A stretch of 64,000 nt of DNA from Thiohalophilus thiocyanatoxydans. Lineage in GTDB: Bacteria > Pseudomonadota > Gammaproteobacteria > UBA6429 > Thiohalophilaceae. Position numbers and translations under genes: made by a program. Shown piece by piece: positions 56,384-58,741 of the stretch (position 1 is its first letter; each line of letters begins with the position of its first letter). The DNA lies in NCBI RefSeq assembly GCF_004366735.1, contig NZ_SOQX01000003.1, positions 62,001-126,000 of the forward strand, given 5' to 3'. Under the pieces are notes generated by a model that saw only the letters and a program-made list of their open reading frames with translations, made no database searches and had not been told where the DNA came from.

Positions 56384-56432
56384 TCAGTACTTAGTACTTA
56401 GTACTCAGAACTCAGAACTCAGAACTCAGAAC
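56384..56432. repeat. Heptanucleotide tandem repeat, seven units
   Basis: TCAGTAC, TTAGTAC twice, then TCAGAAC four times, in perfect 7-bp register. It covers the last codons of the mobA-like gene (stop at 56419-56421) and the gap before DUF2970. Confidence 0.95.
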
Positions 56433-56997
56433 TCGACATATCTTCCGGGTAATCCACATCCCGCAATACACCGGGATCGTTGACGGAAACCAGTGTCAGA
56501 TGCTGCGGGTTGGCGTTCAGAATGGGGCGGGCGCCGTGATCGCCGTCCAGGGCCAACAGATCCCGGACATAAGCACTGCCGAACCCGACCGGGTGGCCGC
56601 GGCGGTCGCCATAAAGGGGCGCGATGATATCCCGGGGTAATTGCAGTGCCGTGGCGATCGCCCGGGTCGTTTGTTTGTCGATCCAGGGCATGTCGCCCAG
56701 GGTGATCAACCAGCCAGGTGCATCGTGGCTGGCGCGTACCGCGCAGGCGAGGCTGCAGCCCATACCGGTTTCGGGTTGGGGATTGATCACGACCTGCAGG
56801 CCTTCTGCTTCGAGCAGTTCCGCGGTGCGAGGATCATCGGGGCCGACCACGGCCACGCTTTCGGGTAACACGGCTTTCAGTTTGCGCGCCGCCTGCGCCA
56901 CCATCGGGACCTGATTCGAGAGGGGCTGGAGCAGTTTGTTGCGGCCAAAGCGCCGGCTTTGGCCTGCGGCCAGCAGGATCCCGGTGACGGGGCTCAT
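56419..56997 (-). CDS. MobA/MocA-type molybdenum cofactor nucleotidyltransferase
   Basis: A 192-residue protein of the GT-A nucleotidyltransferase fold. N-terminal LLAAGQSRRFGRNKLLQPL binds the nucleotide; LGDMPWID is the metal-binding Asp-containing motif; ETGMGCSLACAV and YGDRRGHPVGF fit the MocA (CTP:molybdopterin) branch used by xanthine-dehydrogenase-type enzymes. The start overlaps the XdhC-like stop (ATGA). The last codons run into the heptamer repeat. Confidence 0.87.
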   Translation of the reverse strand: MSPVTGILLAAGQSRRFGRNKLLQPLSNQVPMVAQAARKLKAVLPESVAVVGPDDPRTAELLEAEGLQVVINPQPETGMGCSLACAVRASHDAPGWLITLGDMPWIDKQTTRAIATALQLPRDIIAPLYGDRRGHPVGFGSAYVRDLLALDGDHGARPILNANPQHLTLVSVNDPGVLRDVDYPEDMSSSEF

Positions 56998-57977
56998 ACC
57001 ACATTGACCGCATCCGGGTTGCGCACGACCGCGGTGGCGGCATTACGCAATGCGGTGATCTCGGCGAGGATGGCCAGAGCAATCTCCGGCGGGGTATGGC
57101 TGCCGATGTCGAGTCCGACCGGGGCGTGCAGGCGCTGGATCTGTGCCCTGCTCAGCCCCAGTTCCCGCAGGCGCCGGCGGCGGGCGTCGCAGTTGCGTTG
57201 CGAGCCGATGGCACCGACATAGAACGCCTCCGAGCCGAGCGCCTCGAGCAGGGCCATATCATCCAGCTTGGGATCGTGGGTGAGGGCCAGTACGATACTG
57301 CGGGGGTGGCCGGTGTATTCGCCGACCGCCTCGTCCGGCATCATGCCGATCAGCCGGGCACCGGGTACCTGCCAGCCGGCGGCATACTCCTCGCGCGGAT
57401 CACAGACGATCACCCGGTAGTCGAGCATCAGCGCCAGCTGCGAGACATACTGGGACAAATGGCCGGCGCCGATCAGCAGCATCTGCCACTGCGGGCCAAA
57501 CACCTTGCTGATGGCCTCATCGGTGTAACTGAAGGCCTGATCGGCGCTGGCCGGGCCCAGGCTGACCGCGTCGCCGGTCAGATCCACCCGACGCGCCACC
57601 AGCTCGTCCTGTTCCATGGCACTCAGCAACGGTTGCAGTTGATCCGGATCGATTAACTGCTCCAGCAACAGCTCCAGCCGCCCGCCGCAGGGCAGGCCGA
57701 ATCGGGTCGCCTCTTGGCGATCGACCCCGTAATCGAGTCGAACAGGCAGATCGCTCAACTCATTCTGCCGATAGCGGGCCAGCAGATCCTCTTCCACGCA
57801 ACCGCCGGAGACCGAGCCGACATGCACGCCGTCCGGACGCATCACCAGCAGCGAGCCGGGCGGGCGGGGCGAGGAGCCCCAGGTTTTCAACACGGTGACC
57901 AGCACCAGCGCATGGCCCTCTTGCAGCCACTGGTGAGCAGTCTGGATTACGTCGCGGTCAGTGCCCCAATTCGCCAT
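56994..57977 (-). CDS. XdhC/CoxI-family molybdoenzyme maturation protein
   Basis: A 327-residue protein. The N-terminal XdhC_CoxI domain shows LKTWGSSPRPPGSLLVMRPDG and VGSVSGGCVEEDL; the C-terminal Rossmann domain shows LLIGAGHLSQYVSQLA and HDPKLDDMALLEAL with GAIGSQRN. It inserts sulfurated, cytidylated molybdenum cofactor into the large subunit of xanthine-dehydrogenase-type enzymes. The start is ATG at 57977; the frame is open 84 bp further upstream through remnant sequence. No target enzyme remains nearby. Confidence 0.9.
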   Translation of the reverse strand: MANWGTDRDVIQTAHQWLQEGHALVLVTVLKTWGSSPRPPGSLLVMRPDGVHVGSVSGGCVEEDLLARYRQNELSDLPVRLDYGVDRQEATRFGLPCGGRLELLLEQLIDPDQLQPLLSAMEQDELVARRVDLTGDAVSLGPASADQAFSYTDEAISKVFGPQWQMLLIGAGHLSQYVSQLALMLDYRVIVCDPREEYAAGWQVPGARLIGMMPDEAVGEYTGHPRSIVLALTHDPKLDDMALLEALGSEAFYVGAIGSQRNCDARRRRLRELGLSRAQIQRLHAPVGLDIGSHTPPEIALAILAEITALRNAATAVVRNPDAVNVV

Positions 57978-57988
57978 CGTGGTCACCG

Positions 57989-58120
57989 TCAGGCGAAGAG
58001 TTTCAGTGACAGACGCAGGGAGGGTTGACCGCTCAGGCCCGGTCCATCGTGTCGGGCCCACCGCAGGGGGGGATCGATATCAAGCGTGTAGGATTTACCG
58101 TTAACATTCAGTTGTGGCAT
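57989..58120 (-). pseudogene. Remnant of a [2Fe-2S] small subunit (CoxS/IorA-like) of a molybdoenzyme
   Basis: A 43-codon frame from ATG 58120 with a perfect GAGGAG ribosome site. It begins MPQLNVNGKSYTLDIDP, the start of the [2Fe-2S] subunit of xanthine-dehydrogenase-type enzymes, continues with a degraded PLRWARHDGPGLSG (normally PLLWxLRDxLGLxGT), then loses homology before the first cluster cysteines. The usual 150-residue protein and the large subunit are absent, and the XdhC-like gene starts 12 bp later. A deletion is the simplest explanation. Confidence 0.6.
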
Positions 58121-58540
58121 GCGTTGCTCCTCGCGCGGGTTCCTGCTTTTCAATCCTAGCATTTCCCGTTTGAATTTCACCTGGATAAGGAGGCCCCTGG
58201 GCTGTTGGTGAAAACCGTGCGTATGCCGGACGGAAACTGAATGGAACAATGGCCCGCCCGGGTATAACGGGAAACCGGGTGTTGTCATCGCTCTGAAGCC
58301 CGCCAGCCGGGATGATTTTCACTCGTTGGAGTCGGTTTCGACGCTTTTGATCTTGAATTATCGATTATTATTCCCAAATACTGTAAATGTGTGGTGTTTC
58401 TGGTTAAATTCCAGTATATAATGCGCATACGCTACATCTCTCTGGTTCTTGTCAGTATTTCTTTCCAAGATAATACCTGTTGAAACCTCGCAAGACATGT
58501 ATCGGACTTTTATTAATAACTTTTGAATAGGTAAATTATC
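58121..58540. other. AT-rich region and probable long 5' leader of the cold-shock gene
   Basis: No gene seen. A -10-like TATAAT lies at 58417-58422, about 120 bp before the start codon, which would give a leader of about 110 nt. Such long leaders are typical of cold-shock mRNAs. No matching -35 was found. Confidence 0.4.
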
Positions 58541-58741
58541 ATGGCAACAGGAACCGTTAAATGGTTTAACGAATCCAAGGGCTTCGGCTTTATCGCTCCT
58601 TCTGATGGAAGCAGTGACGTATTTGTTCACTTTTCGGCTATCACCGGATCAGGCTTCCGTACTCTGACTGAAGGTCAATCCGTGACTTTCAATGTCGAGA
58701 ACGGCCAGAAGGGCCCGCAGGCGACAGATGTCCAGGCCTAA
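58541..58741 (+). CDS. Cold-shock protein (CspA family)
   Basis: A 66-residue single-domain nucleic-acid-binding protein. RNP1 (KGFGFI) and RNP2 (VFVHF) are present within [20 protein letters not shown] and the C-terminal [19 protein letters not shown]. It melts RNA structure at low temperature. A canonical bidirectional terminator lies between it and valS. Confidence 0.96.

Follow-up and report, generated by a model that had tools for sequence, protein, structure and literature searches.

The closest described enzymes are two-subunit molybdenum hydroxylases of the xanthine oxidase family, of the IorA/IorB type. In the IorA/CoxS small subunit, eight cysteines bind two [2Fe-2S] clusters. Helper systems in which XdhC occurs with MocA, namely R. 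capsulatus XdhC, B. subtilis PucA/PucB and E. coli YqeB, are treated in PMC2997495, where it was also already proposed that an XdhC homologue encoded away from any enzyme operon may have more than one partner. An xdhC gene adjoining a mocA homologue is common to these systems and to the 64,000-nucleotide stretch of Thiohalophilus thiocyanatoxydans DNA analysed here (the window). In contrast to the systems of that text, the window still displays the scar of an enzyme, so the stand-alone state arose by loss. Compared with intact IorA/IorB pairs, the scar begins and probably ends alike, but both genes are gone except for their outer ends, and no cluster ligands are left. The visible scar thus demonstrates how a stand-alone xdhC-mocA pair arises. 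A literature search with limited wording found no account of such scars in the portions of text that it reached.

We consider it highly probable that an ancestral iorA-iorB-xdhC-mocA operon lost its enzyme before the split from the sister species, and that the helper genes were kept for a type A IorA/IorB pair on another contig, C5. After the deletion of the enzyme genes, a single short open frame would have remained, made up of the beginning of iorA and probably also the final codons of iorB, and xdhC and mocA would have been retained for maturing the remaining molybdenum hydroxylase. In this maturation, MocA would attach CMP to the cofactor, and XdhC would sulfurate and insert it. The locus would mostly represent ordinary genome decay, with a hint that helpers can change enzyme partners.

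Layout of the locus and state of the helper genes

The features of the locus are the following:
58127 to 58132, minus strand: Shine-Dalgarno sequence GAGGAG for the scar frame, whose ATG follows after 6 nt, read from the sequence
57989 to 58120, minus strand: open frame of 43 codons, read as an iorA'-'iorB deletion scar
58028 to 58120, minus strand: iorA-derived part of this frame (codons 1-31, corresponding to the beginning of the [2Fe-2S] subunit but lacking 2 codons), based on the type B IorA profile and the scar of the same-genus genome G001
57989 to 58018, minus strand: suggestive iorB-derived tail, LRLSLKLFA plus stop, based on a stop-anchored comparison
56994 to 57977, minus strand: xdhC, intact, for an XdhC/CoxI-type maturation factor of 327 aa (PF13478, 5.6e-40; PF02625, 3.6e-19)
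56419 to 56997, minus strand: mocA-like gene for a MobA-related nucleotidyltransferase of 192 aa (PF12804, 6.9e-39)

The mocA-like gene overlaps the end of xdhC by 4 nt, and both open frames are full-length. The xdhC product contains an N-terminal XdhC_CoxI domain (PF02625) and a C-terminal XdhC_C Rossmann domain (PF13478), both over cut-off, and the mocA-like product contains NTP_transf_3 (PF12804) over the Pfam cut-off. Since XdhC stayed below the NCBIfam equivalog cut-offs (TIGR02964, 89.4 of 161.6 bits; NF045664, 175 of 350), its profile scores place it as a member of the family and not as a named equivalog. The mocA-like protein scored 124 bits against TIGR03310 (MocA), which missed the cut-off of 186.45 yet was the best of the 17 families listed, and it reached at most 35.9 bits against MobA models. 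Compared with G001, the two genes had a dN of 0.06-0.08 and a dS of 0.26-0.41 (NG86), and the dN/dS of about 0.15-0.22 for xdhC and about 0.2 for mocA indicated purifying selection on both. In the preliminary description the maturation factors looked intact; the full-length frames, the Pfam domains over cut-off and the purifying selection bear this out. No minus-strand promoter was found in a scan of 57700-58560. The last codons of the mocA-like gene are supplied by 7-base tandem repeats at its 3' end (window 56384-56434, TCAGAAC unit, 7.3 copies), and G001 has a similar repeat array behind mocA. Tandem repeats of 7 bases also lie just upstream of the C5 iorA (L004 9252-9510, TGCTGAG unit, 37.4 copies).

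Origin of the short open frame

The scar frame begins MPQLNVNGKSYTLDIDP, with its ATG at 58120 on the minus strand, and ends with a stop codon at 57989; its full 43-codon translation is MPQLNVNGKSYTLDIDPPLRWARHDGPGLSGQPSLRLSLKLFA. Between the stop codon and the xdhC ATG (57977) there are 11 bases and not the 12 bp of the preliminary description, whose well-formed ribosome site and [2Fe-2S] subunit start were correct in coordinates and content. That description had 17 residues followed by degraded sequence. The IorA-like start was confirmed, but the end at residue 17 was not, as the homology to IorA reaches about residue 31 with a 2-codon gap (PLRWARHDGPGLSG vs PLLWxLRDxxGLTG) and the frame stays open for 43 codons. 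Compared with an IorA/CoxS [2Fe-2S] small subunit, the N-terminal homology is present, but the cluster cysteines are absent (the frame has 0 cysteines), as is any family match (none in Pfam at E 1 or in NCBIfam at E 0.01).

Two types of pair were distinguished among relatives: type A pairs are about 72-80% identical to the C5 pair, and the IorB of type B pairs is about 40% identical to the C5 IorB. Residues 2-31 of the window scar scored 14.7 bits against the type B IorA profile and 11.6 against type A, a difference of 3 bits that makes the window scar weakly type B and, by itself, would not decide the type. Taken by itself, the match to IorA is also weak (14.7 bits, with an E of about 0.001 at Z=1000); it is, however, backed by the G001 copy, which scored 66.7 bits against the type B profile and 45.8 against type A, 21 bits apart. 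When the 43-residue frame was searched against 96 genomes, its own included, the best match outside its own genome was the G001 scar (E 3.2e-4 for one genome), and intact iorA frames were also matched at several type A or type B operon loci of relatives.

The other end of the frame was compared with IorB tails, anchored at the stop codon. Against type B tails, a fraction of 0.0031 of 1309 control ends (about 4) scored as high as the last nine residues of the window scar, and 0.0069 as high as the G001 tail, where the nine-residue length and the tail sets were chosen by eye after the likeness had been noticed and the 1309 controls include the tested ends. Against type A tails, both were unremarkable (0.2445 for the window and 0.25 for G001 of the same 1309). 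The type B set consisted of six tails plus those of L091 and L103, two further scar loci described below, with longer type B tails omitted; the type A set consisted of 14 tails. A profile search of the scars with IorB C-termini matched the L091 fusion and neither the window nor the G001 tail. Judged by these comparisons, the scar is best read as a deletion joining the start of a type B iorA to the end of iorB, and we infer its origin from a type B enzyme. The absence of the small and large subunits, as described earlier, stands as far as the loss of the enzyme is concerned, but a piece of the large subunit, the IorB C-terminus, probably survives in the tail.

Age of the loss

The gene order in G001 equals that of the window: valS, csp, scar, xdhC, mobA, DUF2970 and MFS. 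The G001 scar is a frame of 97 codons with two cysteines kept. Its matches to the type B IorA profile cover positions 3-50 (52.8 bits) and 65-103 (13.8 bits), separated by a gap, and are followed by a short tail and xdhC. Since the loss lies at the same place and the scar has decayed differently, the loss predates the species split. The preliminary suggestion that it may be recent does not hold, as it is common to a second species whose XdhC is 89% identical; the identity is 85% for MocA and 95% for ValS. The two scars share 44% of aligned amino acids and 63% of bases over the first 93 aligned, and their dN is about 0.58 (NG86). Compared with the dN of 0.06-0.08 in the helpers, this indicated that the scars decay freely and that the helpers are under purifying selection. 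G001 also keeps a C5-type pair, 88% (first protein) and about 93-94% (IorB) identical.

Intact operons in relatives

We examined 100 loci around XdhC relatives (L056-L155), which were reduced to 91 distinct loci by removing 1 without xdhC and 8 in which the same contig occurred twice. In 28 of the 91, iorB ended at most 200 bp before xdhC, and of these 25 had iorA before it and 21 had a mocA homologue behind, within the stretch covered; 80 of the XdhC loci were the best 80 of a longer list, and the counts are thus no census. The position of iorB directly before xdhC in these relatives indicated that the enzyme once stood here. The preliminary description had proposed looking for an intact pair in relatives and had named, as an opposing outcome, that the large subunit was never present; it is present in such operons.

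The types of these operons were surveyed in 39 same-genus and same-family genomes (G001-G039). A type A pair was found in the xdhC operon of G005, G013, G015, G019, G026, G034 and G032 (cut by a contig end in G032), and in G031 a type A pair lies about 600 bp before a cut xdhC. Type B operons occurred in G006 and G009, and a further divergent operon in G014. Among the fetched stretches, the window's neighbour genes around xdhC were found only in G001, aside from a csp-like match in G017 and weak matches in L070 and L157; most of these stretches extend only a few kb past the operon.

Other arrangements were also observed. In L161 (G009:C173, 98-3319), iorA-iorB is directly followed by a mobA/mocA homologue, with no xdhC match between them. 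In L074 (G027), a divergent iorA-iorB pair lies head to head with xdhC-mocA and does not form one operon with it. The contig of L087, which bears the title Halobacteria archaeon and has the gene group xdhC-mobA-iorA-iorB, is probably misbinned, as its XdhC is placed with those of gammaproteobacteria.

Repeated losses and a possible exchange of enzyme partners

At L091 (4660-5004), an in-frame fusion joins IorA (to about residue 80) to the end of IorB (AAPAVANALYAATGRRFHALPLRVTA, stop) and overlaps the xdhC start by 4 nt; this fusion by internal deletion is an independent enzyme loss. At L103 (1980-2954), all that is left of the enzyme is an IorB tail resembling type B; its open frame of 71 codons lies behind a presumably transposase-like gene and ends 12 nt before xdhC. 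This is another independent loss. In the XdhC tree, the partner of L091 was the intact type B operon L089 (100/99), and that of L103 was G084 (82/82); both lay apart from the window.

All four scar genomes, representing three events, have a type A enzyme elsewhere (75-100% identical to the C5 IorB) and a single XdhC found, at the scar. No xdhC was found in the stretch covered around their type A pairs, which in G096 is truncated at the end of a contig; this genome has an additional distant IorB-like gene. Among the eight genomes with an intact type B-clade pair before xdhC (G006, G009, G099-G103 and G109), one (G009) has a type A enzyme, and none was found in G107 and G108 (outside the type B clade) or in G110; this search omits loci L120, L130, L139 and L149, and the absence of type A is soft, as several type B genomes are incomplete metagenome assemblies. 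In the XdhC tree, which has a midpoint root only, type A operons lie among type B ones, with at least 2 changes on the starred branches. G017 has one xdhC and a type A pair apart from it, and no scar was seen by eye in the 700 bases upstream.

These results suggested that the enzyme partners of xdhC-mocA have been exchanged. Most simply, the two helper genes would have passed from type B to type A enzymes, in trans in this genus and in cis in relatives. A broader proposal, which we hold to be rather unlikely as a whole, is that xdhC-mocA is a portable module that repeatedly outlives its type B enzyme and is taken over by the non-orthologous type A enzyme, acting in trans or settling before xdhC, and that what is left of the old enzyme is retained, open and translated, as a leader securing xdhC translation.

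The remaining enzyme and its probable maturation in trans

The genome, estimated to be 100% complete, has one PF01799 and one PF20256/PF02738 (MoCoBD) enzyme, at C5. It is an intact type A iorA/iorB pair of 155 and 736 aa, with domains over cut-off (PF01799, Fer2_2, 96.6 bits; PF20256, 57.3 and 56; PF02738, 114.4). The solved structure nearest by sequence to its large subunit is 8gy3, an aldehyde dehydrogenase large subunit. Searches with PF20256, PF02738 or PF01799 gave no second enzyme of the xanthine oxidase family besides C5. The single XdhC match in the genome is the window xdhC, which lies on contig C3 and not on C5; moaA is present, and a second strong MobA-like match lies on C8.

With one other enzyme and only one XdhC found, XdhC and MocA most likely mature the C5 pair in trans. 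The preliminary description had considered that the helpers may serve another molybdoenzyme and had proposed a search for another enzyme of the xanthine dehydrogenase family; the one that was found, the intact pair on C5, supports this idea. In the XdhC tree, the window and G001 XdhCs formed a 12-row group (100/97) with ten others as their sister (99/97 for these ten rows), and nine of the ten adjoin type A pairs, indicating that this XdhC lineage does occur with type A enzymes. There was a small conflict, as the IorB tree grouped the C5 pair with L079 and L081 (SH-aLRT 89), but the XdhC tree put the window outside them. With a single XdhC and a single client, which apparently derive from different operons, the genome offers a clean natural test of whether XdhC chaperones are specific to one enzyme. 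The case also warns that the client of a maturation factor cannot in every instance be named from the genes next to it in the operon.

Alternative readings of the short frame

The short frame may be a kept translated leader for xdhC, not an enzyme subunit, whose termination near the xdhC start feeds ribosomes to xdhC by translational coupling. We regard this as possible, with suggestive sequence features, though on balance doubtful. All four scar genomes (three events) have an open frame ending at xdhC, with a 4-nt overlap in L091 and a gap in the others (window, 11 nt; L103, 12 nt; G001, 13 nt), and by eye a strong ribosome site was kept at the window scar with a poor one at the xdhC ATG. Both gaps of the scars relative to the IorA profile, of 6 nt and roughly 42-51 nt, keep the frame (about 1 in 9). 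The short stop-to-start gap is shared with the translationally coupled gene pairs of PMC10666635, but coupling in the window is hypothetical and, in contrast to those pairs, the upstream frame encodes no working enzyme subunit. Against a leader, the decay of the scar is no slower than that of the preceding spacer (63% vs 72% nucleotide identity), and the G001 xdhC has its own ribosome-site-like GGAAG. When substitutions alone were simulated at 0.2-0.4 changes per site, moreover, both frames stayed open in 10-23% of the runs; the present frames were the starting point and the distances were assumed, so that openness alone is no proof of selection.

We also considered whether the type A pair now at C5 once stood before xdhC and was copied or moved, the old copy decaying to the scar. 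The grouping of the window xdhC with xdhCs of which nine in ten adjoin type A pairs would, taken alone, fit this equally well, and those operon pairs share about 72-80% identity with the C5 pair. However, the G001 scar scored 21 bits better against type B IorA than against type A, both scar tails resemble the IorB ends of type B but not those of type A, and the losses at L091 and L103 are type B-like in genomes whose type A enzyme lies elsewhere. A relocation is therefore improbable, and the loss of a type B enzyme from this operon remains the preferred reading.

A conserved small protein with its own function, to which an open frame with a ribosome site in two species might point, is very improbable: the frame is not conserved in length (43 vs 97 codons), its amino acid identity is 44% against 85-95% for the other genes compared, its dN is about 0.58, and the window scar has no cysteine and no Pfam match, so that frame length and divergence rule out a conserved small gene. 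The preliminary description had named the same short frame in relatives, as a conserved small gene, among the outcomes that would refute it, but the G001 frame proved to be a scar that had decayed differently. Finally, the draft state of the genome (15 contigs) would allow for an assembly artefact or a recent deletion, but both are ruled out by G001, as in the assembly of another species the enzyme is missing from this same position and the scar differs.
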